From Calothrix sp. NIES-4105 (GTDB lineage: Bacteria > Cyanobacteriota > Cyanobacteriia > Cyanobacteriales > Nostocaceae): a DNA stretch of 64,000 bases. Shown one piece after another: positions 36,797 to 54,727 of the stretch (position 1 is the first letter of the stretch; every line of letters starts with the position of its first letter). Location: contig NZ_AP018290.1 in NCBI RefSeq assembly GCF_002368415.1, positions 2,669,470-2,733,469 of the forward strand. Reading direction: 5' to 3'. The translations under genes and the position numbers were made by a program. Under the pieces are notes generated by a model. That model had not been told where the DNA came from and did not search any database. It was given only the letters and a program-made list of their open reading frames with translations.

Positions 36797-37021
36797 CTAC
36801 GCTGCATATCTAATAATCTCTACTTCGGCTCCGTTATTTACAGCGACATAAGCTCGTTCTAGTACTTGCTCGGTAATATTATCGTTTAAATAATATTCCC
36901 CACAGTTATTACAAACTTCTGCTGGCACTTTTTTGATTACAACAATAGATTCATCTCTTTCCAAAGTCACAGTTACTAAAACTGGTTTAGTTTCCCCATG
37001 CTTACATATTACACATTTCAT
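36797..37021 (-). CDS. YgiT/MqsA-type zinc-finger antitoxin
   Basis: A 74-residue protein with the two CxxC pairs of the YgiT-type zinc finger (C-V-I-C at residue 3 and C-N-N-C near residue 37), joined by a short beta-rich stretch with V-P-A-E-V-C-N-N-C-G-E-Y-Y-L, as in MqsA-like antitoxins. It starts at ATG 37021, five bases after the stop of a toxin remnant, which matches the toxin-first order of these modules. The toxin is destroyed, so this antitoxin is an orphan. It carries no C-terminal helix-turn-helix. Confidence 0.82.
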   Translation of the reverse strand: MKCVICKHGETKPVLVTVTLERDESIVVIKKVPAEVCNNCGEYYLNDNITEQVLERAYVAVNNGAEVEIIRYAA

Positions 37022-37125: not shown

Positions 37126-37735
37126 AAGGCACGATTTTTGTTTTGTATCTATCGCTAAGGAACGGGTATCGTAATATACTAAAGGTAATCTTTTACCCAT
37201 CCAAATGGAGGAGCGAAAGGTTTCTGCAAATTCCTTTACCAAAATGCTGTCTGCTGCTTCGCTTGTGTGTGGGTGCCGGATATGCGCGAAACATTTGAAC
37301 GTTAAGTGTTGGGTTAGCGTCCATTTTTTCGGCTAGCACCTGGAATAATTTTCGTGCTTTCTCTCCTTTATCTATGGCAAAGCTTGATATCAGAACGCTT
37401 TTTTCGGCTGTGCTAAATAGTTCGCGCGCGACTACGCTTGTGTCTCGACTCTGGGAACCAGCGACTTCGGCACCAGTCCAGACTAAATTAATGCGGTCTC
37501 TTATTTGTTGAGAATTACTCTTTTCTTCTGCTAGTAAACGTAAGGTGTAGGCTATATGTTTACAATCTACACCAATGCTTGCTAAATAGTTTAGTTCCTG
37601 TGCAACTTCTTGGCTTAATGTTGCTGGTACGTAATTAAGAATAGCCGATACAGAGAAGGGTGGGGAAAGCCTTCCGTTTAAGAGTGCTTTCGCCAGTTTA
37701 TTTAAATTTGCACGGCTGAGTTTTAGGAAAATCAT
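37126..37735 (-). pseudogene. drmC: DISARM drmC (phospholipase D-like), frameshifted and truncated
   Basis: The gene starts at ATG 37735 overlapping the drmB stop (TAATG). About 147 residues match a DrmC N-terminal region. At about 37288 one surplus base shifts the frame (M-F then, in the new frame, A-H-I-R-H-P-H-T-S-E-A-A-D-S); the family sequence continues to S-L-A-I-D-T-K-Q-K-S-C-L near 37126. There the expected H-x-K-x-x-x-x-D catalytic motif is replaced by a toxin tail. The nuclease/phospholipase active site is therefore absent. The annotated 180-residue product ends in out-of-frame sequence. As I recall, DrmC is the least essential DISARM part. Confidence 0.8.
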
Positions 37736-39600
37736 TATATTTCCTCATGGAAAAACTCTGCTCCCAACCCTTCTACAGTAGATACAACTAAAGCTCTATC
37801 TAAAAATTCGTTACGACGTTCGCACGAGGTTTCGGCAATTAGTAAGCACCCGTGACAAGCAGAACCGTGTAAAAATCTTTCTTCTTCCTCGTTATCTGCT
37901 TTGTGTTGCGCGCACACTGGGTCATTGGAACATAATTTTCCTTGTTCGAGGGCTGATTCTAAATGGTACTCAATTCTTTTTCCGACTTCTACTAACCCGC
38001 CTAATGTGCCCTCGGAACCAGCGGAGCCTGTGTATAAAAGTATTCCATAACCTGAAGAGCCTGCATAGATACGTTCGCGAATGGAACTAGCTGCATAACC
38101 GCATTCGAGAGATACTGCTGTAATTAATAAATGTGACAGGGAGTGCAGCATAATGTAAGATAGTCCGGGAAATTTGACTTTATCTAGTTCTTGGTCGATA
38201 CCTTTACGCGCGCACCAAATATCAAATCCTCTAGATAATTCTCGTCCCCGCTTTTTAACTCCTTCTCGCTGTAACCAGTCATCAACGGCGCCACTCAGAA
38301 AAGCAATAAATACTCCTTCACCTCTATTTTCTACAGCAGGAACCCAGTTGGTATCTACATCTAATGCTGCACGTCGTACACTAATATCAAGTTCGCCATC
38401 GATGTCGGGCATTTCAGCTTCAAAGCGGGTAAAACCAACTTGGGCAATAACTTCTCGGAGGCGATGGACTAAAACTATACGTTCGATACGCTTAGAAAAC
38501 GCAGGCTTTAAATTGGTTAAATCTCTGGCTCTGGCGTAAAAGTCGCCTTCGGGCACATCTTCCCCAACTTCGACAGGGCTAGAAAGTAATGTTTCAATTT
38601 CTACTGATTTTATGTTTCTGTACTGACTACCTTCCCCACTTTGACGGCGTTGAATTTCTTGCCAAATAACTTCATCGCTAAATCCTTCTATAGCTGAAGC
38701 AACTTTCTGTTTTTTACGTTCTTTTCTAATATCGTTAGCATCCTCGGCATATTTGAGATAATCTTCGTAAACTAAATTTACTGCATTACGCAAAGCGGCG
38801 CCGGAGTCGGGGAGGGAGATAACGCTCAAGAGTTGCGAAAAGTAAGCGTTGCTAGCAGAACGGACTAATAAACGGTTATATTCGGGTTTATCTGTTTTTT
38901 CGCGAATACAAGTTGGTTCTTTGGCAAAGGCGCCTATCCAGGGTCGATGTCCTTGGCAAGATCCTAATACTTTTGCGTTGGGAACTGTGGCATCAGCAAG
39001 GGGGCGCCGAGCAAAACATGCTTCGCAACGGACATAAATTTCTGCAAAGTCGTTACCAGAACCTCCTTCATCTAGCCATAGTTGACCCCGACATTTGTTT
39101 TGCAGGTCTTGATGGACGAAGGTATACCAATCAATATCACTGATATGCCCTTTTACGCAAGCTTGGACGAAGCGCACGGGTACGACTGGTACTTTCTTTT
39201 TTTCGGAGTTGAGATATTTACCTCCTACTAAGCTTCCCCAAGGTAATAATGGACGGGTTCGGTAAGTTTTTTTGGTTTTGGGGTTATGCCAGGTTTCTTC
39301 GACTTGGGCTAAAAACCATGTGGGGAAAGTTATGGCGTTTATTCCTGTGCGCGCGGCCTTGGGGTCTTTTTCGTCTACGGGTGGGGCGTATAGGGTGATG
39401 TCTTTGACTTTTAGTATTTCGGCTATTCTGGCTTCTAAACGTTCTTCGTAAATGCGTTTTTTATCGCCTCGCCATTGGCTTAAGCCGGATATTAGTACTG
39501 AGTGTTCGGGTAGGTCTACCATTGAGCCGGGTCCGAAGGTGGAGAGTATTTGGCTTTGGCGGACTTGTCCTGCTGGGGGGATTTTTTTGTTTTTAACCAT
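37735..39600 (-). CDS. drmB: DISARM protein DrmB (DUF1998)
   Basis: DrmB forms the DISARM core with the helicase DrmA. I start it at ATG 39600 (M-V-K-N-K-K-I-P-P-A-G-Q-V-R-Q-S), giving 621 residues; an upstream in-frame extension to 39750 reads through repeats and is rejected. Visible are F-G-P-G-S-M-V-D near residue 23, cysteine pairs near residues 145-205 (C-V-K-G-H, C-R-G-Q, C-E-A-C), and the C-terminal DUF1998 region with H-S-L-S-H-L-L and C-S-N-D-P-V-C / H-G-S-A-C-H-G-C, likely zinc ligands. It overlaps drmC by one base. Intact. Confidence 0.9.
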   Translation of the reverse strand: MVKNKKIPPAGQVRQSQILSTFGPGSMVDLPEHSVLISGLSQWRGDKKRIYEERLEARIAEILKVKDITLYAPPVDEKDPKAARTGINAITFPTWFLAQVEETWHNPKTKKTYRTRPLLPWGSLVGGKYLNSEKKKVPVVPVRFVQACVKGHISDIDWYTFVHQDLQNKCRGQLWLDEGGSGNDFAEIYVRCEACFARRPLADATVPNAKVLGSCQGHRPWIGAFAKEPTCIREKTDKPEYNRLLVRSASNAYFSQLLSVISLPDSGAALRNAVNLVYEDYLKYAEDANDIRKERKKQKVASAIEGFSDEVIWQEIQRRQSGEGSQYRNIKSVEIETLLSSPVEVGEDVPEGDFYARARDLTNLKPAFSKRIERIVLVHRLREVIAQVGFTRFEAEMPDIDGELDISVRRAALDVDTNWVPAVENRGEGVFIAFLSGAVDDWLQREGVKKRGRELSRGFDIWCARKGIDQELDKVKFPGLSYIMLHSLSHLLITAVSLECGYAASSIRERIYAGSSGYGILLYTGSAGSEGTLGGLVEVGKRIEYHLESALEQGKLCSNDPVCAQHKADNEEEERFLHGSACHGCLLIAETSCERRNEFLDRALVVSTVEGLGAEFFHEEI

Positions 39601-39756
39601 AAGAGTTAGGAGGCGCGGAGGCGCGGAGTTATTAGATTTTGGATTTTGGATTTTGGATTTTTTTAAGGTTGGTCTTGTTGAGTGGGCGTCCCCGCCTGCT
39701 CTTTGAATATGGAACCTATAGGAGAAACGGGCAGGATGCCCATTCCACAAGAGAAG
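39601..39756. repeat. GGATTTT and GGCGCGGA repeats between drmA and drmB
   Basis: The gap contains GGCGCGGAGGCGCGGAG (39612-39628) and four GATTTTG units (39635-39660). A GGGCGTCCCCGCC / GGGCAGGATGCCC hairpin family member, related to 62752-62845, follows at 39683-39750. These separate two genes that are normally adjacent in DISARM operons. Confidence 0.65.
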
Positions 39757-42700
39757 CTAATTCTCTGGTTCTACCTCATGCCCGTTAGGGTTTATTACCC
39801 ATAGGTTTACTGTTGGTTCTACGTCGCGTAGGCTGCGTTGAGCTTTGAGTTTTTTTTGTACTTCTAGTGGCTCGTTTTGTAGTTCTGGGTCTAGGGGTTC
39901 ATATATTAGTGGAGGCGCCTCTCCGACTTCGCGTTGATATTGCAGTCTAATTTTGTCGTTGGCGATGCGTTCCCACAGGTCGAGTAGGTCTAAAACTGTG
40001 TTTCTGACTTTTCGGCGCCGATATAAGGTTGTCGCTTCGTCTTGGTCATCGTGCATTTCTGCGCGCTTTTCAATTGCATCAACAACAAATTCTAGTTCTT
40101 GGCGATGTTGTAAAATTTCTCCTGCACCACATGGTGCCGTCATTTTAGGATGTCCCAGACGTGCTAGAGCAACAGTTATGGCTGCTATACCTCTGTCTAT
40201 GGCACGGGAGGAAAAGGGAGTTACACTGGTTGCTTCAACCGCACGGTAAAAGGAGGAATGCCAAGCAAAGAAACGTTCGTAGTGAGAACGGTCTCTGGGT
40301 CGATGGATGTTAAGTAATGTTATGACTAAACCTGGTTTGTTTTCATCTCGTCCGACACGACTAGTTGCTTGGATATATTCGGCGGCTGTTTTGGGTTGAC
40401 CGAGAATTACCATTAAGCCAAGACGGGTAATATCTAAACCTACAGAAATCATGTTTGTTGCTAAAACAACATCAACTTTGTCACTTTTATCAAAAGTTAA
40501 TTCCATTCGCCGTTTGGTATCTGCTACAGAGCTAGTACTAACGCGCGATGTAAGTTCTTCTGGTTCATCGTCTATTTTTCGGTCTGCGAATAAACTAGTA
40601 GTTTCACCAACTCGTTTGCGTCTACTGTAGCTATTGAGACGTGAGTTAACTTCGTCTTCGACGATGCGACGACTTCCTCCTAATTCCCGTAGTGAGTTAA
40701 AGTAACCTAATAATGTCATGTATGGGTCGGCTGGGTTATTGAGATTTTTCTTGCCTCCCGCAGCTAACCAGTGCTTTTGAGCGGCGCCTAACAAAACAAG
40801 ATAAGTACGTAATAATACTACCTTTAAACTGCGTCCTTGTGCAGCAATTCCCACATAAGTGCGGGCGTTTTTTTCGCTTGCGCTTACTGTTTTGGCAAAA
40901 AACGAATCGCGTCTATCTGGCCCTGGTGGGGGAAATATATCAACTTCGTTACGACCAAATAATGCTTGAATTTGCTTACTCGCGCGACGAACTGTAGCTG
41001 TAGAGGCAATTATTTTCGGTCGAGTCACTTTTTTGTTAATTTCACGACTGCATAAAGCATCAATTGCAGTTTCGTAAAGTCCTACGATTGTTCCCAAGGG
41101 GCCAGATATTAAATGTAATTCGTCTTGAATAATTAAATCTGGTGGGGGTAAATGACCTCCTAGTGTTTTACCTCGTCCGGGATAAACTGGCCCATAAAAG
41201 CCATCTTTATCGAAGCGGTCTACTTTTCCGAATAATGCACCTGTTTCACCAACCCAAGGTAAACTCGCAAATTTATCGACTGTGGCAATAATAAAGCAGG
41301 GTAAACGACGATATATTGCTTCGTCTACAGCGACAATAGGCAAATGCTTACTTTTGCTACCAGAAAAATTACAACGACGGTTACTACAACATATATGTAA
41401 ATCTATTGGTTGTTCGCTGGGAATGAGTTGAAATGAGTTGCGGGTAAATTCTGTATCGCACCAAGGACATTTTTCTAAAGGTATGGGTGAGGGGTTGCGG
41501 TCGTTTTTTTGAAAATCCTTAGTGCGTTTATAAGCGCTATAATCATCTCCATCATCTTTTTTACCCATGCGGTTGGGTGTTGCTGCTTGTCCCACCCATA
41601 ATCCAATTTCAAAAGGCCAAGTTCCTAATTTACCAGGATTTTGTTGCCGTTCCAATTCTAAAGCGCATATCATTGTTGCTGCTCGTCCCAGTTGGTCAAG
41701 GGTGAGAAGTCGTAGGGTATAGCGCATTAACACACTTAAACCAGCAGACTTTATATCAGGGTTATGCAGGCGCCGTAATATTAGTGTAAAAGCACTGAGT
41801 CCTAAATAAGCTTCGGTTTTACCACCCCCTGTAGGGAAAAATAGTAAATCAACTAATTCCCTGTCATCATCTTCGGGGTCAGCAACTCCAACTAAGTTCA
41901 TTAAAATAAACGCTAACTGGAAAGGGCGCCATTTTGGAGATGTGACACTTTCGGGTGTAATATCAAATCCGTGGGTGGCACGTTGACGAATATATGTAGC
42001 AATTACACGGTTGCCAATTTGGAACGCTTCAAATATTTGTGGGTCTTGTAAAGCTTGTATACCTTGGTTAATGCGATTTTTGGCAAGAGTCGCGCGTTGT
42101 AACAATTCCAATGCCATATCTAACCGCTTTGGTTCTTTGGGAGCTTTGGCACGTTGCTGTTCAATCCAATCAGCATAAGCATCCACAATTGAAATTAGCA
42201 TATTTTGCAAAGCTAACGGTGTGGGTGCCTTGGCAATTTCCTCCATCCCTAACTCTACATCTTTAAATTCCTCCTCAGTTGCAATCACCTTTTCCACATC
42301 AGCAGTTGGTATCCAAGCAGTATGAATATGGTTACAACTACCATCAGGGTTGGTAATAGCTATAGCAGAAACGTTATGACCAACAGCATATTCATAGTCA
42401 TTTCTATATTGTAAATCGGCAACACTCTCATCCCAATCATCATTATCCCGTCCGCGTAAATTTGGACGAGGAACTAAAGGTTCTGGGGTATTAATAATTA
42501 AACTAGTTTGAAAAGTATAAGTAATATCACGTTCTTTATCGTTAGTGGGCAAACGATTATTTACCAAAAACACCGATACCGAAAAAGTCCCAGCAGGTAC
42601 AAGTTCCCCAGAAGTTACGGGACGAGTAGAAATAACCAACTGTAAACCATTGCTATCGGGTATGGGAATAGTTGAATTTTGATGATAATTATTTCCTAGA

Positions 42701-43149
42701 GGAATAATTAACTCAACTTGATGAGGAATGCGTTTCCAGCATCCCGACATAGGTTCTTTTTCTTGCGTTTCGTTATCTAAATTTTCTTTGTAAGGAGCAT
42801 AATCACCCCACGTAATGGTAGCATTGAGGTGAGTAGTATTCTCATTGACAAGTAGGCTTAAACCCATCGATGAAGGGAAACAAGCCTTTTTTGCAAACGT
42901 TTTCTCAGGTATCCCATCATCATCGGCGGCAACGCTACCAACTTCGTCTACATCTTCATTTGCAGTTTCATCTGTACGTTGCTCAACAGAGGCACCGTAT
43001 GGAACAAGAAAACCTGTTAAATACCATTTTGATGGCGCCTGGTCGATGATTTCTTCTATATAGTCAATATCATCGGGGGTGGCGCCTACAAGGTCAAGTT
43101 GTAGTGCTTCGATAAGGTGTTGACGTATTTCGGCTGAGGTTTTAATCAT
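39757..43149 (-). CDS. drmA: DISARM helicase DrmA
   Basis: A 1130-residue superfamily 2 helicase. Walker A is F-P-T-G-G-G-K-T-E near residue 437, the DExx box is Q-D-E-L-H-L-I-S near residue 677, and motifs V and VI are seen in A-T-N-M-I-S-V-G-L-D-I and Q-A-T-S-R-V-G-R-D near 945-970. A CxxC pair (C-P-W-C) near residue 568 and a second C-rich stretch suggest a zinc site. In DISARM, DrmAB binds and translocates DNA with exposed 5' ends. ATG 43149 matches the partial duplicate at 45166. The gene is separated from drmMI by 3.8 kb of inserted material. Confidence 0.93.
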   Translation of the reverse strand: MIKTSAEIRQHLIEALQLDLVGATPDDIDYIEEIIDQAPSKWYLTGFLVPYGASVEQRTDETANEDVDEVGSVAADDDGIPEKTFAKKACFPSSMGLSLLVNENTTHLNATITWGDYAPYKENLDNETQEKEPMSGCWKRIPHQVELIIPLGNNYHQNSTIPIPDSNGLQLVISTRPVTSGELVPAGTFSVSVFLVNNRLPTNDKERDITYTFQTSLIINTPEPLVPRPNLRGRDNDDWDESVADLQYRNDYEYAVGHNVSAIAITNPDGSCNHIHTAWIPTADVEKVIATEEEFKDVELGMEEIAKAPTPLALQNMLISIVDAYADWIEQQRAKAPKEPKRLDMALELLQRATLAKNRINQGIQALQDPQIFEAFQIGNRVIATYIRQRATHGFDITPESVTSPKWRPFQLAFILMNLVGVADPEDDDRELVDLLFFPTGGGKTEAYLGLSAFTLILRRLHNPDIKSAGLSVLMRYTLRLLTLDQLGRAATMICALELERQQNPGKLGTWPFEIGLWVGQAATPNRMGKKDDGDDYSAYKRTKDFQKNDRNPSPIPLEKCPWCDTEFTRNSFQLIPSEQPIDLHICCSNRRCNFSGSKSKHLPIVAVDEAIYRRLPCFIIATVDKFASLPWVGETGALFGKVDRFDKDGFYGPVYPGRGKTLGGHLPPPDLIIQDELHLISGPLGTIVGLYETAIDALCSREINKKVTRPKIIASTATVRRASKQIQALFGRNEVDIFPPPGPDRRDSFFAKTVSASEKNARTYVGIAAQGRSLKVVLLRTYLVLLGAAQKHWLAAGGKKNLNNPADPYMTLLGYFNSLRELGGSRRIVEDEVNSRLNSYSRRKRVGETTSLFADRKIDDEPEELTSRVSTSSVADTKRRMELTFDKSDKVDVVLATNMISVGLDITRLGLMVILGQPKTAAEYIQATSRVGRDENKPGLVITLLNIHRPRDRSHYERFFAWHSSFYRAVEATSVTPFSSRAIDRGIAAITVALARLGHPKMTAPCGAGEILQHRQELEFVVDAIEKRAEMHDDQDEATTLYRRRKVRNTVLDLLDLWERIANDKIRLQYQREVGEAPPLIYEPLDPELQNEPLEVQKKLKAQRSLRDVEPTVNLWVINPNGHEVEPEN

Positions 43150-43268
43150 AATGTATTTTGTAAACGGGTAAAATATGAACGTTTGTCATGCTGAGGAACG
43201 TAAACGGAGTTTTCCCGCTTTCTTAGCATCTCTAAGATTTTCACGTTCATTAAAAGATTTCATTTATC

Positions 43269-43466
43269 CGGGGGTTAATCGGTTCAATTAATTTGGGGGT
43301 TATCGGTTCGATGAATTTGGGGGTTATCGGTTCGATGAATTTGGGGGTTATCGGTTCGATGAATTTGGGGGTTATCGGTTCGATGAATTTGGGGGTTAAT
43401 CGGTTCGATGAATTAGGGGATTAATCGGTTCGATGAATTAGGGGATTAATCGGTTCCATCGCATTA
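43269..43466. repeat. Tandem ~24-bp repeats GGGGGTTATCGGTTCGATGAATTT
   Basis: About eight head-to-tail copies of a 24-25 base unit, perfect in the middle and drifting at the ends (TTAATCGGTTCCATCG). There are no spacers, so this is not CRISPR. It abuts REP-like element A and has a divergent counterpart at 44200-44365. Confidence 0.9.
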
Positions 43467-43470
43467 ATCC

Positions 43471-43612
43471 GAGGGTTAAAAACCCCCGTCTAATAGCTAA
43501 AATCGTCTGAAGACGATTATTTAATTTGTTTGAGAATAATAATTAATTCTTAACCATAGTCCTCTTAAAGAGGACTTTTGCTATTAGCCGGGGATTTGAA
43601 ATCCCTGGATTA
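43471..43612. repeat. Multi-hairpin REP-like element, copy A
   Basis: In order: GGGTTAAAAACCC; CTAATAGC; hairpin AATCGTCT-GA-AGACGATT; hairpin AGTCCTCTT-A-AAGAGGACT; GCTATTAG (complement of CTAATAGC); and GGGATTTGAAATCCC. The CTAATAGC/GCTATTAG pair encloses the two inner hairpins, giving a branched fold. The same architecture is repeated in copies B (44366) and C (51044). Confidence 0.85.
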
Positions 43613-43661
43613 GATTAGCATAGAATAATATTTTTTTATACGAGGTTTTATTATAAAAATT

Positions 43662-44081
43662 TTATGAGGTGATTGTGTCTGATTGCTCTAAATGAGAATT
43701 TGTTGTTCCTTGTGAGTGGTGTATTTTTTGATTTCTAACATAGTTTACTGCATCATCAACTTGTTTACTGCCTAATGAAAAAACACCATATCCTTCTTGC
43801 CAAGTGAATTTTGGGGATGTTGTGGTATTGGTGTAGTTTAAATGATGAGAACTACTACCTTTAATTGCTTTGACAAACTCGGAAACTGCCATTGTTGGTG
43901 GAATAGATACAACGATATGAATGTGGTCTTCTATGCCACCTATTGCATGAGTTATACATTTTAGGAAATCGGCTTTACCAATTATATAATTATAAAGTTC
44001 AGGTTCTCTATCGGGAGTGATGAGAGGTTGACGTTTTTTTGTTGCCCAAACGATATGATAGTAGATTCGCCAGAGTGACAT
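43662..44081 (-). mobile_element. Y1 (HUH) transposase, REP-associated/IS200-like TnpA
   Basis: A 139-residue single-strand DNA transposase. It has the HUH motif in D-H-I-H-I-V-V near residue 52 and a catalytic tyrosine in A-V-N-Y-V-R-N-Q-K near residue 113. The start M-S-L-W-R-I-Y-Y-H-I-V-W-A-T-K is typical of REP-associated tyrosine transposases, which lack TnpB. It lies between two copies of the multi-hairpin repeat (A and B), as such enzymes do. It looks intact. ATG at 44081. Confidence 0.9.
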
Positions 44082-44199
44082 AATTTTGGATTGATTAGAT
44101 TTGCTTATATAATATGGTGCCCATATTTGTTGGAGAAATTAATGTGTTAGCTTAAAATTTACGATAAATTTATCTTGAACCTCAATTTGAATGCCATAC

Positions 44200-44365
44200 A
44201 TTTGAGGGTTAATCGGTTCCGTGATGGGGGTTAATCAATTCGATGAATTTGGAGGTTAATCGGTTCCATGATGGGGGTTAATCAATTCGATGAATTTCGA
44301 GGTTAATCAATTCGATGAATTTGAAGGTTAATTGGTTCCATGAATTGGGGGATTAATCGGTTCCA
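44200..44365. repeat. Degenerate tandem repeats GGGTTAATCxxTTCxATGAATTT
   Basis: Six or more units of the same family as 43269-43466 but more diverged, alternating GGTTCCATGATGG and CAATTCGATGAATTT. It abuts REP-like element B. 44082-44199 has no gene. Confidence 0.8.
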
Positions 44366-44517
44366 TCGCATTAATCCGAGAGGGTTAAAAACCCCCGTCT
44401 AATAGCTAAAATCGTCTGAAGACGATTGTGTGATTCGGCTGCGAATAAAATAAACCCCTGAATTTTAGTCCTCTTAAAGAGGACTTTCGCTATTAGCCAG
44501 GGATTTAAAATCCCTGA
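44366..44517. repeat. Multi-hairpin REP-like element, copy B
   Basis: Same order of hairpins as copy A: GGGTTAAAAACCCCC, CTAATAGC, AATCGTCTGAAGACGATT, AGTCCTCTTAAAGAGGACT, GCTATTAG, CAGGGATTTAAAATCCCTG. The region between the two inner hairpins differs from copy A, so the stems are conserved while the spacer is not. Confidence 0.85.
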
Positions 44518-44602
44518 ATTTTGGGGTTTTGGTATTGTTGAATTTTTTGATTTTTGGATTTTGTAATGATTGGCTAATTAACACAGCAGGGCAGATAGCA
44601 AT

Positions 44603-44917
44603 ATGAGCCAAAAACTAACACCATCAAAAGTACCAACACCTGGAAAAATTTTAAGCCGAGAATTAGAAGCTCGTGGTTGGACGCAAAAAGATTTAGCTGA
44701 AATTATTAATAGTCCAGTTCAAACCATTAACGAAATTATTCGGGTAACCAAGCAAATTACGCCAGAAACCGCAATTGAATTATCCCAAGCTTTGGGTACT
44801 TCTGCTGAGTTTTGGACGAACCTTGAAGCAAAATATCGGCTTCATCTAGCGGAAAAAGAAAAAAAGGAGGAGGAAACCGAGCAAAATATAGCTCGTAAAA
44901 GGACGCTTGCAACATGA
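44603..44917 (+). CDS. HigA-family antitoxin (orphan)
   Basis: A 104-residue protein with a helix-turn-helix of the HigA/addiction-module type: P-G-K-I-L-S-R-E-L-E-A-R-G-W-T-Q-K-D-L-A-E near residue 13, then I-T-P-E-T-A-I-E-L-S-Q-A-L-G-T-S-A-E-F-W. The C-terminus is a charged Lys/Glu helix. HigA normally follows its HigB toxin or carries a metallopeptidase domain; neither is present. It is the only plus-strand gene inside the DISARM cluster and sits between REP-like element B and the drmA 5' duplicate. ATG at 44603. Confidence 0.85.
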   Translation: MSQKLTPSKVPTPGKILSRELEARGWTQKDLAEIINSPVQTINEIIRVTKQITPETAIELSQALGTSAEFWTNLEAKYRLHLAEKEKKEEETEQNIARKRTLAT

Positions 44918-44977
44918 AAAATTAATTCCTCATAAAAATTTAAGAGTTTTACTAGTTAAAGTCAGTTCCCTTTTTTC

Positions 44978-45166
44978 CTAAGAATTATTTGCATGTTGTT
45001 CGACAGAGGCGCCGTATAAAACGAGAAAACCTGTTAAGTACTGTTTTGAGGGCGCCTGGTCGATGATTTCTTCTATATAGTCAACCTGTTCGGGGGTGGC
45101 GCCTACAAGGTCAAGTTGTAAAGCTTCAATAAGATATTGACGTACTTCAGCAGACGAATTAATCAT
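44978..45166 (-). pseudogene. Duplicated 5' end of drmA
   Basis: From ATG 45166, 55 codons closely match the start of DrmA (E-A-L-Q-L-D-L-V-G-A-T-P, then I-D-Q-A-P-S-K-x-Y-L-T-G-F-L-V), after which the frame ends at 44978 just as the similarity to drmA ends. By eye the DNA match to 42985-43149 is about 85%. Two or three GGCGCC sites are preserved. The fragment lies upstream of the intact gene with 1.8 kb of REP-like elements, transposase and HigA between them. Confidence 0.88.
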
Positions 45167-45177
45167 AATATTTCAAA

Positions 45178-45281: not shown

Positions 45282-45382
45282 TTAGACCAATATAACGAAC
45301 CGCAAAGGGCGCAGAGTTCGCAAAGGAAGAAAAGAAAGAAAAGGGATTTAAATAATTTATTTAGGGTTGCTATATATAGTAA

Positions 45383-45543: not shown

Positions 45544-46518
45544 TTAGGCATTTTCGCTTGCGGAAAGCCATTCCTCCATCTGTTGAAGTTGCTGCCAACT
45601 AAGCATCTTGACCATCAAATCATCAAGCTGGTTAGCGTTTAACTTTTGGAGTTGGCTAACTATCTGTGGAGTCAGAACCTCATTACCAAACTTGACTCTA
45701 ATTATAGTATTCGCCGACTCAATCTTGCCTTCAAGCTTGCCTTCTGACTTCGCCTTATTCATTTCAGCCTCGTACCAAGCATCGATTTCTTCCATCGTTT
45801 TCATAAAATCTTCCTCCTCTGGAGCTAAATTATTAGTAGGTATATTTTGTAGATAAACACAGTATTTAATACATGCGCTAATTATATCATTTTTCTCTCG
45901 GCGCTCCGGGGATAACTGCTTGATTGATTGAAAAGCGTTCTTTGCACTTTCTTGATTTCCCAACATTTTCAACCAAATCGTGTCAGGTTCATCAACCAAC
46001 TCCGTGATAACAACAATTCCCATCCGAAGAATTTCGGTAAGCTTATATACACCTACCCCTAGTTCCGCCGCTGTTTGGGCGCCACTTGCTCTCAATAGTT
46101 TTTCACTGCAATTTACTGTCAGTATCCAGGTAAATGGGTTCTGATTTTCTATTTGTTGTTTTGCCTGTTTCGATAGTCGCTCTCGACTTGTTTCCAGTTG
46201 AGCTTTGGCATTTTCTACCAGTTCTTTTTGCTTTTGCGTCCAATACAGATTTTTTCGGGTAATTGATTTATGAATATCTGTCTCTTCTAAATATGCGCTG
46301 TAATGTTCAATAATGATAGTCGGATGTTCTTGCATTACAAGATCGAATAAACCTAAATTCTCTTGCTGCCATTCTATACTTTCTCGTCGCATAAACATCA
46401 AATCAATCTCCAGGTCTTCATCGTTACGGACTTGGATATTTTGCAGAGTATCCCCTTTCGTTTTATATAGGGATTGAATATAAAATTTGAAGAATCTATC
46501 GTGTTTGTACTGAGCCAT
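45544..46518 (-). CDS. Rpn/PD-(D/E)XK-like family protein
   Basis: A 324-residue protein of a family abundant in cyanobacteria, often labelled Rpn-family nuclease, putative transposase or hypothetical. The start K-H-D-R-F-F-K, the acidic D-L-E-I-D-L-M near residue 33, W-I-L-T-V-N-C-S-E-K-L-L near residue 132, and a C-terminal E-G-K-L-E-G-K-I-E helix followed by I-I-R-V-K-F-G-N-E are family-typical. The catalytic ExK triad is not convincing here, so activity is uncertain. It sits between drmMI and the drmA fragment, downstream of a ParD-like gene, and is probably unrelated to DISARM function. ATG at 46518. Confidence 0.7.
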   Translation of the reverse strand: MAQYKHDRFFKFYIQSLYKTKGDTLQNIQVRNDEDLEIDLMFMRRESIEWQQENLGLFDLVMQEHPTIIIEHYSAYLEETDIHKSITRKNLYWTQKQKELVENAKAQLETSRERLSKQAKQQIENQNPFTWILTVNCSEKLLRASGAQTAAELGVGVYKLTEILRMGIVVITELVDEPDTIWLKMLGNQESAKNAFQSIKQLSPERREKNDIISACIKYCVYLQNIPTNNLAPEEEDFMKTMEEIDAWYEAEMNKAKSEGKLEGKIESANTIIRVKFGNEVLTPQIVSQLQKLNANQLDDLMVKMLSWQQLQQMEEWLSASENA

Positions 46519-46562: not shown

Positions 46563-46829
46563 TTAGTTAGTTGGTAAATTGCCATTATTTTTAAGTTTAT
46601 CTTCTACCAGTTTCATAATATCCTGTACAGTGGATGTACTTACACCACTATCTAACCCTTCCTGAATAAGAGAAAGTAAATTTTGTTCTGCCTGTCGCTT
46701 GTCTTGGTCACGACGTATTAAATCACGAAAGTATTCGCTATCGTTCGCATAGCGTCCGCTTTGAATTTGAGCCTTAACCCATTCATCCATCACATCAGGG
46801 ATAGTAATAGTTTTCCGCGTCATTGCCAT
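46563..46829 (-). CDS. ParD-like ribbon-helix-helix antitoxin (orphan)
   Basis: An 88-residue protein. The N-terminal ribbon T-R-K-T-I-T-I-P and the helix D-E-W-V-K-A-Q-I-Q-S-G-R-Y-A-N-D-S-E-Y-F fit the ParD/CopG antitoxin family; the C-terminal half would neutralise a ParE toxin. No ParE follows: the next gene is the Rpn-like protein. AAGGAG lies nine bases before ATG 46829; a second ATG at 46823 is possible. Confidence 0.85.
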   Translation of the reverse strand: MAMTRKTITIPDVMDEWVKAQIQSGRYANDSEYFRDLIRRDQDKRQAEQNLLSLIQEGLDSGVSTSTVQDIMKLVEDKLKNNGNLPTN

Positions 46830-46924
46830 TATGCTGACTCCTTCCGCTTACATATAAAGTATGTTCAAAGTATGATTATTATCATACCATATACCACAGG
46901 CGCCATGAAAAAATATCAACATAT

Positions 46925-49900
46925 TTAGGTAGTTTCCAAACCAGGAATACTCGCATTTGCTTCTTTCTTTCGTGTTCCTCCTTTTTTAGCTGTATTTTTA
47001 GTATTCCCTTTTCCTTTACTTTTATCTGCAACCTTGCCTCCTAAAATTTCTGCTTCCGCGCGCTGTTGATTCAAATCCAGCAACCGTGCTAAAACCTCAT
47101 CGTGGGTTTCTTCACTCCAACGATGGCGCCAAGGTTTTTTCTTTTGTCGTCCACTACTGTTTTCTGCGTCTTCTTCCTCTTCGTAGTCAAGGAGAAAATC
47201 GCAGTCTGTGGAAATATCCGTCCAACCATATGCATCAAGAACTGCCCTATCTATCGCTATGTGCAGTTCGCGAAGTTTAATGATTTCCGGGTCGTATTCG
47301 TCGGGGTCATGAAAACGGTTGTAAGTGTCGGTAAGCCCTTGGTTATTGCGAACCATTAATGCCGCGCGGTATTCGTAGTATTCTTTCCCTATAGCTTCTA
47401 ATGTGGGGTTTGTTTCCCAGTTTTCAGGGAAGGGGAAGGTTTCAAAGCAGTCGGATGGGTTATAGCGAAGTCGGTCTTCTAAAGATGAGCTGAAGAAACG
47501 CGCAAAAACTTCGTGTATCCGAGATTGAAGAACTGTAAAAGTGGAATATGTCTGAAAGGGAAAGACGTTTAAACTATTTGCAAATACAACTTTAGGTGAA
47601 TAAAAGATGAAGGACAAATGAGTTGATGCTTGGGCGTTTGTTACTAACACACGTTCGAGAGGTGCGATTGCTTTAAACAAAGCGGGTGTTGTTTCTCCAA
47701 ATCGCCACCAATAACGAGCGCGAATTTCTCGATTTTGTGCTAATCTCGCGGGTTTAACTTTTTCTTCTACAATCTTCATCAAATCAGAATATTTCCTAGC
47801 CTCAGCTTCACTCATCTCACCGAAATTAATTACATACCGATGATGTGTATGAGTTGGGCTTGAATTTACTTCTTCCCCACCAATGTAAGGAAAAACTCGC
47901 TCTTGATTCTTAGGATTATGTGTAATCAAACGCTGCATTTCTGCAATAGGTGTAGCATCAGAGTTGGAATCATCAAATGTAAATCCCATACCCAGTACAA
48001 TGCTACCTTGAAAACTTTTGTCAGCATTTGCTAACAATGTTGTAGGATTCTTATTTCCACCAGATTTAAATAGAAACGCTGAAATTAAATCAACTTCTCG
48101 TCCATCTAAGAGCTTTACACCTTGATAATCACCCTTAATAACATTAACAACACTCACAACAACCGCAGCTAAACCAGGCCACTTTAATCGCTTTTGAGCA
48201 TTATATATAGTTCCACCATTCTCACAGATATATCTCAACCCAGTACTACGAGTGTCACCTTGAGCAATGGTATTTGTGGCAATCAAACCAAAACAACCTG
48301 ATTTTCGTAAAAGACTAAATGCTCTGCGGTAAAAGTGAGCTACTAAATCAGAGTTACCATGCGATTCTGGATTTACAACTTTTAACCAATCCATATAACC
48401 ATCTGCATGGGAATTTATTGCTGTATTTTTACCTGCAAATGGGGGATTTCCGACTATCGCATCGAAACCAGGATTTTCTCTGTCAAATACCTCTGGAAAT
48501 TCTAACTCCCAATTAAATACTTTAACAGGTTTCTCTGCTTGCCGCAAGTCTTGACTAATTCTGGTAACTTCTAAATTATCTTTATTTTTCTGCCAATCTC
48601 TAAACTTTAACCATAAAGCATTACGCTCATCCTTCCTTACTTTATCTTTATCTCCAGCAAAGAAAGATGCAACTACTAAATCTCCTTTCAACCGTGCGTC
48701 TTGTAATAATTCCTCAGCAGCATGATAAAATTCGCGCTTTGCTTCGTAGTTTGCATCATCTAAAGTTTGAATGTTATCGCGGTTGAATTTAATCTTCTGA
48801 TAATTCTCGTTAAATAAAGGTAAATTTGGGTCATCATAGGTGGTGTCGCGTTCCCAGTTAAATTTTACAAGTTGGTCGCGCGTTAAACCCACTAACGAAT
48901 CACCACATTTTAATGCATGGTCTAAAAATGTAAATGGTTGCTTTTTCGCTAAAGTCACTAACCATAAAGATAATTTTGCCAAAGTGACTGCAAAGGGGTT
49001 TTTATCTACCCCATACAAACAACGCTGTGCTATTAAACGGCGCCCATAAAGCAACGGTTCTTCGTCAGCAGGTATTTCTGTTATAATACCATGTTGGTTC
49101 CAAGCTTCTACTAATTTTTCTGCTAACTGACGGCAAGCTTCGACTAAAAAGGCGCCACTACCTACAGCTAAATCACATACTTTCAAATTTAATATTTGCT
49201 CTGGTGTGGGACGTTCTCCCAATGCTGCTAAAACTGGTCTTAGGGTTTCTCTAACAATTGGTTCTGTTAATGCGCGAGGTGTATAATGAGAACCACTACG
49301 GCGCCGTTCTTCTCCTGGTTGCAAGTACAATGAACCAGGCGCCAAAATTGTTGGAGTTTGCTGGGATATCTTTCGTCCTAAAGCTGCGATTAAATCATCT
49401 GCTGTTTTTGCTTGCTTTAACTCTGTTGATGATTTACCGGAAACTTCACAACCTGCTATTTCTTTTAAATATTTTGCTCTATCATTGGCTTTAGTTTTTA
49501 ATATCTCATCAACACTAACAACTACTGTCACCGAAGCTTTGGCACTTTTTGGTTTACTCCAAACACCGATAGATATAGAGGTAGCTACGTTGACCTCATA
49601 TCCGGTGGCCGCTTCGTATACTGACCCGATTTGTTCGACATCCAAAGAACGGTATGATAAACGCTCTCCATCAAGAACCAATAAACGTTGTAAGACTTTA
49701 TGAATTACTCCATCAGAAATGCGAGGTGGTTCAATTAGTTCCCATTCTTTATATGTAGTGCTGCGCGAGCGACCTTCTAAAAATGGATACTCATCGGGGT
49801 CAAAAAGCTGTCCATGACGAGCAGGTAAATATAAATCTGCATGACAACCACCATCATACACTAACCGAAAAAGGCTAAGTAACCATGCCCAGGCGCCGTA

Positions 49901-50884
49901 ACGTTGTTCCATTGTATCAGGATAATTACCTGCATCTTCGCGCAATCTCTCATAAAGTCCTGTTACTGAATAATTGCGTGTATATATTGAATCCTGCGGC
50001 ATTAAACCCTCATCTTCTGCATATAGCAAGAAAACTAACCGCAGTAAAACAGTAATTAGTCCACCATAAATATGTTGAGGATTTGTTTGGGGAATATCAC
50101 CGAGCAAATTATTTTTAGCGGCATCATTTGCTGCTTGAAAACCTCGTAGCAATTCCCATAGTGCATCAAGTACCTGTTCTGATAATTTCGTCGAAACCTC
50201 ATTTTGATACTTACGACTATTTTGTAATAGCGCTGCTAAACGACGTTCTGGTAACATCCCAAATACTCGGTCTGCTTCCAATAACATATGCATGGCGCCT
50301 AATATTAATCTTCCTGACACTTCGCACATTGCTTGGACAGGAAATGTTAGGTGTCCTGAAGATTCACCGCGCGGTGCATAAACTAAGCGTATTTCTATAC
50401 CGTTAAATATTATACCGATGGGAATTTCTTTTTCTCGTAATAAGCGCTCAAATTTTTCCTGGGGGCTTGCGTGCCATGCTGTCGTTTTATTATTATGATC
50501 GTTGGATTGGTCAAAATTAGTGCTTAAATCTATTTCCTGTACTAACATCAACCAACCGTCATTATTATTAGGTACAGCATAGGTAGGTTGTAATATTTCC
50601 CCATATTCAGGAAGAGATACGGCTAATTCTGCTAATTTCTCGGAATTATCTATTAAATCTGTTATTTCCCAGCCAAGTACATTAACGGTGAAAGCGGGAA
50701 AATCAGAAATTGAGGCGCCATCTTCAGGATTAACACAAGTTAGCAATTTTTGCTGTAATTCAACAATGTTTTTATTTATAGATGCTTGTGCTGCAACTAA
50801 TGCGGGAGGTGATACTACTAAACCTACTGGTTGGAGGAAACCTAACCATTCTTTATGTGCTTGGATTTCTATATTTTTTGCCAT
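46925..50884 (-). CDS. drmMI: DISARM class 1 adenine methyltransferase DrmMI
   Basis: A 1319-residue type IIG-like N6-adenine methyltransferase. The SAM-binding motif is L-A-V-G-S-G-A-F-L-V-E near residue 575, and the catalytic motif is I-V-G-N-P-P-F near residue 807 (Eco57I class). The N-terminal 550 residues lack a clear PD-(D/E)XK nuclease, as expected for a modification-only enzyme. The C-terminus is Lys/Gly-rich. It marks host DNA so that DISARM spares it. The order drmD-drmMI on one strand defines class 1. Nine GGCGCC sites suggest long residence. ATG 50884 is confirmed by the matching start of the 51376 duplicate. Confidence 0.9.
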   Translation of the reverse strand: MAKNIEIQAHKEWLGFLQPVGLVVSPPALVAAQASINKNIVELQQKLLTCVNPEDGASISDFPAFTVNVLGWEITDLIDNSEKLAELAVSLPEYGEILQPTYAVPNNNDGWLMLVQEIDLSTNFDQSNDHNNKTTAWHASPQEKFERLLREKEIPIGIIFNGIEIRLVYAPRGESSGHLTFPVQAMCEVSGRLILGAMHMLLEADRVFGMLPERRLAALLQNSRKYQNEVSTKLSEQVLDALWELLRGFQAANDAAKNNLLGDIPQTNPQHIYGGLITVLLRLVFLLYAEDEGLMPQDSIYTRNYSVTGLYERLREDAGNYPDTMEQRYGAWAWLLSLFRLVYDGGCHADLYLPARHGQLFDPDEYPFLEGRSRSTTYKEWELIEPPRISDGVIHKVLQRLLVLDGERLSYRSLDVEQIGSVYEAATGYEVNVATSISIGVWSKPKSAKASVTVVVSVDEILKTKANDRAKYLKEIAGCEVSGKSSTELKQAKTADDLIAALGRKISQQTPTILAPGSLYLQPGEERRRSGSHYTPRALTEPIVRETLRPVLAALGERPTPEQILNLKVCDLAVGSGAFLVEACRQLAEKLVEAWNQHGIITEIPADEEPLLYGRRLIAQRCLYGVDKNPFAVTLAKLSLWLVTLAKKQPFTFLDHALKCGDSLVGLTRDQLVKFNWERDTTYDDPNLPLFNENYQKIKFNRDNIQTLDDANYEAKREFYHAAEELLQDARLKGDLVVASFFAGDKDKVRKDERNALWLKFRDWQKNKDNLEVTRISQDLRQAEKPVKVFNWELEFPEVFDRENPGFDAIVGNPPFAGKNTAINSHADGYMDWLKVVNPESHGNSDLVAHFYRRAFSLLRKSGCFGLIATNTIAQGDTRSTGLRYICENGGTIYNAQKRLKWPGLAAVVVSVVNVIKGDYQGVKLLDGREVDLISAFLFKSGGNKNPTTLLANADKSFQGSIVLGMGFTFDDSNSDATPIAEMQRLITHNPKNQERVFPYIGGEEVNSSPTHTHHRYVINFGEMSEAEARKYSDLMKIVEEKVKPARLAQNREIRARYWWRFGETTPALFKAIAPLERVLVTNAQASTHLSFIFYSPKVVFANSLNVFPFQTYSTFTVLQSRIHEVFARFFSSSLEDRLRYNPSDCFETFPFPENWETNPTLEAIGKEYYEYRAALMVRNNQGLTDTYNRFHDPDEYDPEIIKLRELHIAIDRAVLDAYGWTDISTDCDFLLDYEEEEDAENSSGRQKKKPWRHRWSEETHDEVLARLLDLNQQRAEAEILGGKVADKSKGKGNTKNTAKKGGTRKKEANASIPGLETT

Positions 50885-50915
50885 TTTTTTAACCTATAGT
50901 TATTTATAAATTATT

Positions 50916-51043
50916 CAATCAATTAGTCAGGGATTAATCCATTAATCAATCAATCCATCAATTAATTAATCCATCAATTAATCCATCCATCCATGCATCA
51001 ATTAATCAATTAATTAATCAAATCAATTAATCCATCAATCAAT
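50916..51043. repeat. AATTAATCAAT/CCATCAATT low-complexity tandem repeats
   Basis: Dozens of short overlapping units (AATCAATT, CCATCAATT, CCATCCATCC). They are the position equivalent of the TTAATCGGTTCCATGAATT repeats next to REP-like copies A and B, and directly precede copy C. They lie in the leader of drmMI, ending about 30 bases before its ATG. Confidence 0.85.
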
Positions 51044-51174
51044 TAGCCAGGGATTAAAATCCCAGTCTCAAAGCTCAAGTCGTCTGAAGACGACTAAATC
51101 TATAAAAAAATTGTATTTTTGATTAGTCCTCTTTAAGAGGACTTTCGCTATTAGCCAGGGATTTTTAATCCCTT
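51044..51174. repeat. Multi-hairpin REP-like element, copy C
   Basis: CAGGGATTAAAATCCCAG, AAGTCGTCTGAAGACGACTAA, AGTCCTCTTTAAGAGGACT, GCTATTAGCC and CAGGGATTTTTAATCCCT, the same hairpin order as copies A and B. Compensatory changes in the second stem (AGTCGTCT/AGACGACT instead of AATCGTCT/AGACGATT) keep the pairing, which points to selection on structure. It abuts the drmMI 5' duplicate. Confidence 0.85.
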
Positions 51175-51177
51175 CGA

Positions 51178-51376
51178 TGGTGAAAGCGGGAAAATCAGAA
51201 ATTGAGGCGCCGTTTTCACGATTAACACAAGCTAGCAATTTTTGCTGTAATTTAACAATGTTTTTATTTACAGATGCTTGTGCTGTGACTAATGCGGGAG
51301 GTGATACTACTAAACCTACTGGTTGCAGGAAACCTAACCATTCTTTATGTGCTTGTATTTCTATATTTTTCGCCAT
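51178..51376 (-). pseudogene. Duplicated 5' end of drmMI
   Basis: From ATG 51376, 66 codons match the start of DrmMI almost exactly (Q-A-H-K-E-W-L-G-F-L-Q-P-V-G-L-V-V-S-P-P); by eye about 94% DNA identity over 200 bases with 50686-50884. The match ends inside F-P-A-F-T, where REP-like element C begins, and the frame runs through the element to a stop at 51068, giving a potential 102-residue hybrid peptide. It keeps the promoter-proximal position just after drmD. Confidence 0.9.
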
Positions 51377-51407
51377 TTTTTATTATCCAAATTTCTGAAT
51401 TTTGTAT

Positions 51408-51424
51408 GGTGGGCACTGCCCACC
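51408..51424. repeat. GGTGGGCACTGCCCACC palindrome
   Basis: A perfect copy (around one central base) of the dispersed palindrome. It touches the drmD stop codon (51425-51427), so the last few DrmD codons may derive from the insertion, and it could terminate the drmD transcript before drmMI. Confidence 0.75.
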
Positions 51425-54400
51425 TTACCCGGAGACGGGCCATAAATAAATTAAACCGACTGGCTCAACCCTTCTGGCTTTAACTTGATAGGAAGCCTCG
51501 ATACGTGCGGGTTCGGAGATTATTTCCTCGTTAAGTGCTTTTAGTCGCTTTTCCCAATGGCGCCGATCTGCATCTAACTGTCGCTTTTCAAAATCTTCTG
51601 TAGGAAGAAAAGATAATTGCTTGGGTTGTTTCTCTTTATCTTCGATATCTTTCTGATGTCGGAGAATAGACTGTTGCTGCTGTTCGAGAATCTTTTTCAT
51701 TTCGGCAGCTTCTTTTTCTCCTCTTTTTATTAGTTCTCTTTCTGCCCTTTCTGCTAAAGTATCCGCACGACGCTTTAAATGTGGTATTAACTCGTCGATG
51801 TTTTGCTTTGCATTACTTTTTAAAAGTTCTTTGACTGTCTCGGTAACTTTTTGCAAGCGAGGAGAACCCAAAGAATCTTCTAATAGTTTCAAAACATTAT
51901 CTTTTTCACCTTCGTTAAGAGGTTGTAATTTCTTGCTTCCTCTTACTGCTGGGTCTATCCATTCGGCAGCAACCGCTATTACTTCATCGTGTAACCTTGA
52001 GGCGCCTTGTCCATATACAGATAAACGTCCCAAAGCAACAACAGAAGGCATTGGGTCATCGGTTAAACATACACAGGCGCGCGTTAATTCGTCATGCAGA
52101 AAACCCTGTGCCAAAAATCTACTCAATAATCTTTGTACTACCCGATGTTCTAAATGCAAATGAACTACATTGCCATCCAATGAACCAGGGTCACGGAATA
52201 CTACCGGACGAATAGGTGCTTCCCGGCGCCAGTCCCAAGGTTTTTGTCCTTTTTTACGTGGTAGTCGCAATGTATCAAAGGTATTTGACCATGTATGGTC
52301 TGCGCGTTGGTCGAGGGGTGGAAGTGTCCATTTCGCTGTAGATTTGTCTTGACAAGCTTCGTTTGTATCTACTGGAGCTAGAGGAGTGGCGCCGAGAATT
52401 TCTAAAGATGCAGAAATTGCTTCGCGGAAATGATGGTCATCGAGTCCTAACCAATTCTGCGAGGTCTTCAGCATTTCTTGCAATTGACCAATTTGTTTGC
52501 TTAAGTCTTCTCTTTTCTGACGATTATCTTCTAATTCTTGACTAATTGTTTGAACATTAGGTAATTCTGCTTTTTCGATAGATTCGGTAATACTGCTTTC
52601 TTGATTATGCAGAATACCTCTTTCTAGTAGTCGAGATAAATTCTTTTCGACAACTGGTGAAAGTGTTCCTAATTCTTTTTGGATAGTTTTTGTTTTACTT
52701 ACCAGTACGTCTAAAACTCTATCTTCTACACGTTGCGGTAAAACAAAGTAGTAACAGCGAACTTCTTTGGAGCGCTGTAATTTTCTGTCTATTCTGCCGT
52801 TTCGCTGTTCCATGCGCGAAGGGTTCCAGGGAATGTCAAAGTGATATAAATCTGCACAATTATTTTGTAAGTTTACCCCTTCGCGTGCTGCGTCTGTTGC
52901 TATCAAAATTCTGAGTGGATGACGCTCTGGGTCAGCATTAAAAGCATTTTTAATTGCTTCTCGACGTTCTTCACCAATTCCACCATGAAATACATCTATT
53001 CTTTCATGTTCTCTATCAGAAAGGGCAATGGCAGCCTGTAATTGTTGCTGTAAGTAACGTTTAGTATCTGTGTATTCAGTAAATATAATGACGCGCTTTT
53101 CTAACCATTTGGCGCCGGATTGACCTAAGTTAGGACAGAGATTTGTTTTTATCCACTCGATTAATTTTTTTACGCGCGGGTCAGGTAGGTAGCGAGATTG
53201 ATTTGCTACATTGGTCATTTGTTCTAATATTTCTAATTCTTGTGGAGATAACCCTATTGATGCTTGCTTGGTTGCTGCGGTGATTTGTGCATCTTCTTCT
53301 GCTTGCACTTCTTCTTCTGGTAGTTCTGCTCGTTCGTCGTCGGCGCCAGGGGGTTGTAGTAATAAGTCATCACTGAAGTGATGATGACGACGAGGTGCGG
53401 CGTGCTTTTCGAGGGCTGTACGGTGAACTTTCAGGGTGCGGGAAAATGCTTCGATTGATGATAGTAACCGCTTTTGTAGCGAAGTAATTACTAACATCGC
53501 TGTATTTTGGGTTGATTTAGGAGCATCTTTAAGTCTTTGCTCTCGCAAACTACGATACGAATGTAGTAAACGCGATAATTTTAATTCCGGCGCCTCTTCT
53601 GGTAGATTATTAATGGCTATGGGAATGACTTTACGTTCTGGGAACTCTTCTCCAACTTCTCTTAAATCTTGCTTTAACCGTCGCACCATTACTGTGTCGA
53701 GTAATTTCTTATCTCGCACGGGTACACCTCGACAAAATCTTTGCGGGTCAAGTATTTCTAGCAAAGCAGCAAAACTATTCGAGTGTCCGTTATGGGGAGT
53801 CGCAGATAGGAATAATTTATGCTCAAATCTGGGTGCTATCTCTCTAACGGTGCGCGTTAATTGAGAATCTACAGCATATTTTGCACCACTCGCTGGCGCC
53901 GCATTATGTGCTTCATCTAAAATAAGCATTGAACTTGTAGCGAAATCTCCTAACCAATCTCGTAACGGTGCCGCATAAGTCTCATCTCTAAGCATTGCAT
54001 GAGAAATAATAAATCTGGTGTGTGTCGTCCAAGGATTGATACCATAACCCCGTTCCTGGCGCCGATTAGCCACAAATTCCCGGTCAAAAATTACAAAAGT
54101 CAGTCCAAAACGACTTTCCATTTCCTCCTGCCACTGACGCACCACCGAAGGAGGACAGGAAATTACCACCCGTCGCACCTTTTGCCGCATCAGCATTTCT
54201 CTCAATATCAAACCCGCTTCAATAGTTTTACCCAAACCAACATCATCAGCAATAAACAAACCGACTCTCGGCATTAACAAAGCTTTACGTAGCGGCTCAA
54301 GTTGATAAGCTTTAACCTCAATACCCGCGCGGTAGGGAGCTTGAAACAACTTTGGATTAGTTGAAGTAACGCAGTTCCAACGCAGCGTGTGAAGATAAGC

Positions 54401-54643: not shown

Positions 54644-54713
54644 GCACCTCTTCCCACTTAATTTACAAACACCTCCTTTTCGACAAATCACTACTCCATA
54701 GCTAGCTGAAAAT

Positions 54714-54725
54714 GTTTCCGGAAAC
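54714..54725. promoter_or_regulatory. Palindrome GTTTCCGGAAAC upstream of drmD
   Basis: A perfect 12-base palindrome about 70 bases before the preferred drmD start, in the likely promoter region. It could be a repressor operator; no other copy was noticed in the window. Confidence 0.35.
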
Positions 54726-54727
54726 AA

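Follow-up and report, generated by a model that had tools for sequence, protein, structure and literature searches.

Gene-start duplications at two genes of a REP-rich class 1 DISARM operon in Calothrix sp. NIES-4105

We examined a 64,000-nt stretch of Calothrix sp. NIES-4105 (positions 2,669,470 to 2,733,469 of contig NZ_AP018290.1; hereafter, the window), which carries a class 1 DISARM (defense island system associated with restriction-modification) operon in which the starts of two genes, drmA and drmMI, each occur twice. The genome comprises 12 Mb in 8 contigs, and the window lies on the 11-Mb contig. The operon is on the minus strand and has the gene order of class 1 systems (drmD, drmMI, drmA, drmB, drmC), a class which we take to be marked by the presence of drmD and drmMI. 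Broken extra copies span the first 60 to 66 codons of drmA and drmMI, each upstream of an intact gene. They probably stem from two separate local segment duplications in an operon rich in repetitive extragenic palindromic (REP) elements, as by-products that left mostly debris.

A first-pass annotation of the window, made from the letters alone, had proposed that the two genes show the same architecture. It was right that two DISARM genes carry a start duplication bracketing the same type of REP; the shared architecture was rejected, as the type of junction and the copy that holds the ancestral flank differ between the two.

Results and Discussion

The duplication at the drmMI start

Comparing the window with itself revealed 203 nt of the drmMI start repeated at 94.6% identity (E 2e-86) and 183 nt of the drmA start at 84.7% (E 8e-53), both far beyond chance. 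The different divergence had been taken to mean different ages; two separate duplications of different divergence are supported. The features at drmMI are as follows, with arrays detected by Tandem Repeats Finder (TRF) and REPs folded as single-stranded DNA, giving z-scores against shuffled sequences.

46925..50884, minus strand: drmMI, intact (1319 aa; PADLOC DrmMI)
50687..50889, minus strand: drmMI 5' end, copy within the intact gene (94.6% over 203 nt to 51179-51381)
50936..51045, no strand: AATC-rich tandem array (TRF)
51046..51177, no strand: REP M, a double palindrome that meets the drmMI fragment at the REP's terminal stem (fold z -6.5)
51179..51381, minus strand: drmMI 5' fragment (open reading frame [ORF] 51068-51376, 102 aa, which runs into REP M)

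Between the copies there is thus the AATC-rich array and one double palindrome, REP M. The closest relative compared is the DISARM locus of Calothrix sp. FI2-JRJ7 (L047), whose DrmA is 91% identical in its best segment. At that locus the drmD-drmMI gap is 77 nt and the drmMI-drmA gap 415 nt, and it has no straddling repeat, neither duplication and no REP match. The drmMI fragment is L047-like through the letters TCGA and then passes directly into the terminal stem of REP M, so that its junction falls exactly at that stem. The fragment together with drmD (51174-55066) is collinear with L047 5831-1862, and the intact gene, to 5 nt before its start (46903-50889), is also collinear with L047. The fragment therefore occupies the ancestral junction between drmD and drmMI, and it is the stretch preceding intact drmMI that is new.

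Gene and fragment share 8 sites at which L047 agrees with the outgroup L039, against 1 and 0 for the other groupings, which makes the copy younger than the split from L047. The outgroup, aligned without gaps, cannot be relied on near the end of this stretch. The gene has 3 changes of its own and the fragment 4, and a tree pairs them (93/92, bootstrap not settled) on equal branches of 0.032 and 0.031.

The duplication at the drmA start

The drmA start recurs upstream of its gene, as the first-pass annotation had noticed, though the repeat covers about 60 codons rather than 55. The REP copies A and B, tandem repeats, Y1 transposase and HigA ORF that it had seen between the drmA copies were all recovered, the REPs being 84% alike. 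Searched against the whole genome, 44583-45300 matched only the drmA fragment and gene.

39757..43149, minus strand: drmA, intact (1130 aa; PADLOC DrmA; collinear with L047 drmA)
42970..43152, minus strand: drmA 5' end, copy within the intact gene (84.7% over 183 nt to 44987-45169)
43153..43255, no strand: ancestral drmA upstream sequence, retained by the intact gene (collinear with L047 9868-9998)
43270..43456, no strand: 24-nt tandem array beside REP A (TRF, 7.6 copies, 96%)
43471..43611, no strand: REP A, double palindrome (fold z -6.1 vs. shuffles)
43662..44081, minus strand: Y1 HUH transposase of the REP-associated tyrosine transposase (RAYT) type (139 aa; PF01797, E 5e-28)
44200..44366, no strand: 25/47-nt tandem array beside REP B (TRF)
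44380..44520, no strand: REP B, double palindrome (84% to REP A over 141 nt; fold z -7.9)
44583..44984, plus strand: higA-immA remnant (HigA ORF 44603-44917 with an HTH_3 match, plus 3' flank)
44987..45169, minus strand: drmA 5' fragment (ORF 44978-45166, 62 aa)

REPs A and B flank the RAYT gene (43662-44081) on both sides. By eye, the RAYT translation has a DHIH motif and a candidate catalytic tyrosine in NYVRNQ. The fragment's junction is the 3' end of the higA-immA remnant, and the nearest REP (REP B) ends 466 nt away. The flanks are the reverse of the drmMI case: intact drmA retains about 106 nt of ancestral upstream sequence (to 43255), and most of the sequence upstream of the fragment has no L047 counterpart. 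The exception, 52 nt at 45291-45342, is 94% identical to L047 9793-9844, although a similar motif occurs elsewhere in the window. The copy with the ancestral flank is thus the gene at drmA and the fragment at drmMI.

The drmA tree pairs fragment and gene weakly (96/73) inside a group with G005 (100/98), the genome carrying the L047 drmMI; its bootstrap is not settled, and site patterns give no decision (4 vs. 4 vs. 3). The fragment's branch is longer (0.14 vs. 0.042 for the gene), as expected of a sequence that would have become a relaxed remnant. Its unique changes comprise 5 at first, 3 at second and 11 at third codon positions.

The HTH_3 ORF was confirmed, and the first-pass annotation had called it a HigA gene; we read it as a remnant, because the related gene in locus L062 encodes HTH_3 fused to an IrrE/Peptidase_M78 domain and adjoins a HigB. 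No HigB was found beside the window's HigA among the ORFs scanned, so the two-gene HigBA arrangement is absent. The remnant is 90-92% identical in nucleotides to the antisense higA(-immA) between drmMI and drmA in L062 and L039, and the 3' part of the gene is also present in L076.

This likeness bears on a different origin, in which homologous recombination between drmMI and drmA brought in a segment of another DISARM locus that included the drmA fragment. The remnant's 90-92% exceeds the identity of DrmA in L062 and L039 (84% and 82%, protein), and the order of RAYT and HigA varies between loci. The fragment itself, however, groups with the window's gene and G005 and away from L062 and L039, although its exact place is weak (96/73) and the site patterns are undecided. 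On balance, arrival from another locus is unlikely, and we retain a more diverged local duplication for drmA.

Gene pieces duplicated in other DISARM operons

The first-pass annotation suggested a repeatable mechanism. Stated fully, one REP/RAYT process would have made both duplications, by a template switch at a REP hairpin in replication or repair or by a RAYT nick of a REP, with about 150-250 bp of the nearby gene copied to the REP end. In the window and 52 further DISARM loci, each gene start was compared with the remainder of its locus, after duplicate views of one locus had been removed by hand. Ten of the loci were taken by place, nine of them for holding a RAYT. Outside the window, no start duplication was found at 43 drmA, 42 drmMI, 38 drmB or 28 drmD starts (with under 300 nt upstream in view for one drmA and two drmD starts), and start duplication at other DISARM operons is thus not supported. 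Near misses were repeats just upstream of drm gene starts in L058, L090 and L162, and in L170 tandem repeats ahead of drmMI that extend 9 nt into the gene.

Two loci had interior gene pieces duplicated. In L089 (Trichormus sp. NMC-1), 246 nt of the drmMI interior are repeated at 100% directly after a REP preceded by tandem repeats; because it shows no differences and continues into unread bases, this copy may be an assembly fault. In L051 (Brasilonema angustatum), 245 nt of the drmD interior (residues about 319-392) occur at 961-1204 and 2250-2494 with 94% identity, the copy lying ~200 nt upstream of the drmD start, where no REP match occurs. Separately, drmMI of L051 is split over two frames.

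A REP match of any kind was present in 17 of the 52 loci (two of the matches being only 27 nt). REPs were present in 8 of 9 loci with a RAYT vs. 9 of 43 without (P = 2e-4), which speaks for a REP/RAYT process.

REPs outside DISARM

We then take the REPs themselves as the starting point, found by likeness to the window's own, with flanks mostly of 1.5-2.5 kb. In the same genome, the REP core has 23 matches, 5 of them in the DISARM operon; no gene was duplicated across the REP at the other 18 loci, viewed with 1.5 kb on each side. The wider sample consisted of 80 listed places, a part of all listed places, and loci returned by sequence searches. The screen, which covered 153 non-DISARM loci in 45 genomes and 212 distinct REP places (61 of them double-length), sought direct repeats bracketing a REP, with minimum values of 80 nt and 78% identity.

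Such repeats occurred in 7 of the 153 loci (L120, L130, L146, L167, L176, L186 and L234). The sole clear gene piece was in L130, where the last 147 nt of a RAYT are present twice, each copy ending at the REP terminal stem. By eye, L120, L146, L176 and L234 were set aside because the repeat is the REP plus flanking DNA, and L186 because the copies are of a small ORF (70 codons, start included) 600 nt from the REP; the array in L167 is more than 6 kb away. Also set aside were L149 (65% identity, two similar ORFs), L113 and L114 (REP-rich arrays), L201 (64 nt, 78%) and L021 (38 nt).

No start-only gene fragment stood beside a REP in the 153 non-DISARM loci, and L130 concerns a 3' end; a general REP-linked copying of gene starts is therefore rejected, and the enrichment of gene-start duplications at REPs for which a survey of other cyanobacterial genomes had been proposed was not found. 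Among DISARM loci with REPs, 2 of 18 have a bracketing gene piece vs. 1 of 153 others when the window is included (Fisher's exact test, P = 0.03). Leaving out the window, the comparison is 1 of 17 vs. 1 of 153 (P = 0.19), and so enrichment at DISARM loci is not shown.

Taken together, a REP-linked process is plausible from drmMI, L130 and, with its caveat, L089, in which gene pieces of 147-246 nt end at a REP terminal stem. Specificity for 5' ends does not hold (interior in L089, 3' in L130), and L051 argues against a need for REPs. Against one process for both window duplications stand the drmA fragment, which ends at the higA-immA remnant and no REP, the single clear gene-piece case in 153 loci, the possible assembly fault in L089, the L051 drmD piece without an intervening REP, and the DISARM comparison without the window. 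A shared REP mechanism is possible but doubtful, because drmA is more diverged, its broken end lies elsewhere and the L051 drmD piece was duplicated without a REP.

Origin and comparison with known systems

Two separate local duplications, with the fragments as by-products, remain the probable explanation. REP plus flanking or gene DNA is repeated as a unit elsewhere (L130, L120, L146, L176 and L234, and L089 if correctly assembled), and drm pieces duplicate locally without a REP too (drmD in L051); both observations favor by-products. As to the molecular route, we infer for drmMI either that a REP was inserted into a roughly 200-bp staggered gap, or that a unit of REP plus flank was duplicated and then partly lost, including the outer REP. 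Either would leave a REP and tandem repeats between two ~200-bp start copies, of which the upstream copy became the fragment and the downstream copy belongs to the full gene. At drmA, a more diverged duplication would have left a fragment joined to the higA-immA remnant in the drmMI-drmA interval. Events of this kind would survive only where the downstream gene was left complete, which may explain why gene starts are seen. Selection would be needed only to explain why the downstream gene stayed whole.

Several observations weigh against this explanation. The drmA junction is not at a REP, and one near relative without the duplications was available for polarizing the events. Of the 19 changes unique to the drmA fragment, 11 are at third positions (one-sided P = 0.024), a weak hint of past coding constraint. 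REP richness speaks for the explanation, the 12 DISARM loci counted holding 49 REP core matches vs. 1.1 expected from whole-genome counts, but this figure is inflated by tandem arrays, 9 of the 12 loci were chosen for a RAYT and three lack a core match. Among the three not chosen for a RAYT, G018 has 5 vs. 0.33 expected (111 core matches genome-wide), and G005 and G137 have none.

The arrangement can be compared with known mobile systems. The window's RAYT shares its Y1 transposase family (PF01797) with IS200/IS605 elements. To our knowledge, IS200/IS605 insertions make no target duplication, whereas the window has 203-nt copies on either side of REP M. REPINs are units of two REPs in inverted orientation; the two-REP unit is comparable, but in the window the neighboring gene's start is copied on both sides. 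REP clusters and REPtrons (PMC3733652) resemble the window in two respects: double palindromes flank a Y1 HUH transposase, as in the drmA interval, and REP units are repeated with flanking DNA segments, local duplication of REP units being a known habit of such clusters. The window differs in that the flanking segment is the start of a defense gene. Of the GTAG or CGTC tetranucleotide that marks a palindrome end in REPtrons, inspection of REP M by eye revealed no GTAG, and CGTC is present inside a stem.

Retention of the fragments

The first-pass annotation also considered selection for reversible control of a costly defense, with the duplications kept as reversible or regulatory parts. Start codon and open frame are kept in both fragments, the drmA fragment has the third-position bias given above, and REP hairpins separate operon genes. 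Yet each gene is complete whether its insert is there or not, so loss of an insert would switch neither gene, and reversible control finds no support. The other drm starts tested show no duplication, the region has no excess of promoter- or terminator-like sites compared with shuffles (21 vs. 27.2; 8 vs. 7.0), and drmC of the same operon is broken. A regulatory role is thus highly improbable. We infer a lack of function: any effect of the fragments on spacing or read-through in the operon is most likely incidental.

Other features of the operon and the window

The core genes drmD, drmMI, drmA and drmB are all on one strand (PADLOC, E 0 to 2e-77). Compared with a typical class 1 operon, the window has a broken drmC, and fragments, a RAYT, REPs and toxin-antitoxin remnants lie between its genes.

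37193..37735, minus strand: drmC, frameshifted, 3' end lost (PADLOC DrmC; compared with L047 DrmC)
37735..39606, minus strand: drmB (PADLOC)
45544..46518, minus strand: accessory ORF between drmMI and the drmA fragment (weak DUF4351 match, under curated cut-off)
46563..46829, minus strand: ParD-type antitoxin ORF (PF03693)
51425..54727, minus strand: drmD (1100 aa; PADLOC)

Against L047 DrmC (277 aa), drmC aligns piecewise in three different frames, at residues 2-18, 16-162 and 157-216, so the intact drmC of class 1 DISARM is missing here. DrmC is reported as dispensable (PMC9142583). Just beyond drmC lies an MqsA/YokU-like antitoxin ORF (36797-37021), with matches under curated cut-offs. No known structured RNA was found by Rfam at gathering scores in 36000-56500. 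Elsewhere in the window, 24125-24430 and 24435-24739 form an adjoining direct repeat (308 nt, 84%) whose two scanned ORFs have no Pfam match, and about 180 nt at 10093-10272 match their own reverse complement (74%), with a part found again in inverted orientation at 17453-17517.

REP and RAYT load of Nostocales DISARM operons

A RAYT between drmMI and drmA, in the same direction as the drm genes, occurs in the window and in L162, L164, L165, L168, L169, L170, L171 (broken) and L172. In L173, whose contig lacks drmMI, a RAYT lies upstream of drmA. The presence of a RAYT was the reason for including most of the loci from L162 to L173. Among the 30 best DrmMI match loci listed (own included), the genomes with such a RAYT were our own, G032, G168, G069, G105, G097 and G118, and G091 has a RAYT on another contig. 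REPs lie at the drmD-drmMI boundary in 6 of 52 DISARM loci, at drmMI-drmA in 8 and at drmA-drmB in 4.

REPs also occur inside drmMI. L165 (8055-8410), L168 (8525-8760) and L169 have one as an in-frame insert near codon 924/925, tandemly duplicated in one of the three with a 153-nt unit. Near codon 600, a REP lies within the open frame in L051 (6691-7076) and L170 (9322-10098, with a 13-residue repeat), and L065 has one inside drmMI at 6681-6786. At 6555-7296 of L039 (Cyanomargarita), a nucleotidyltransferase-HEPN pair, a toxin-antitoxin-like cargo, lies between drmMI and drmA.

A single inherited clade of DISARM RAYTs was rejected (approximately unbiased test, P = 0.021), and the DISARM label is nonetheless clustered on the RAYT tree (3 changes vs. 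a shuffled mean of 8.0), which omits the duplicate or broken entries L032, L119 and L171. A literature search on RAYTs and DISARM, mostly outside subscription journals, returned no paper on the pairing by title.

We tentatively raise the possibility that Nostocales class 1 DISARM hosts a resident RAYT and REPs as a long-lived associate, with REPs at the three gene boundaries and in frame inside drmMI, and that local turnover remodels the operon, including the copying of gene starts. The association may then be functional, through spacing, expression or diversification of DrmMI.

The window offers a clear natural example of a defense operon remodeled by local duplication beside REPs with its duplicated genes left intact, and exact junctions are now available for testing how REPs and their flanking DNA duplicate. 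The REP and RAYT load of Nostocales DISARM operons is a better lead than the duplications. REPs and a RAYT are concentrated in some of these operons, and whether they mark a passive hot spot or a partnership between transposase and defense is a testable question.

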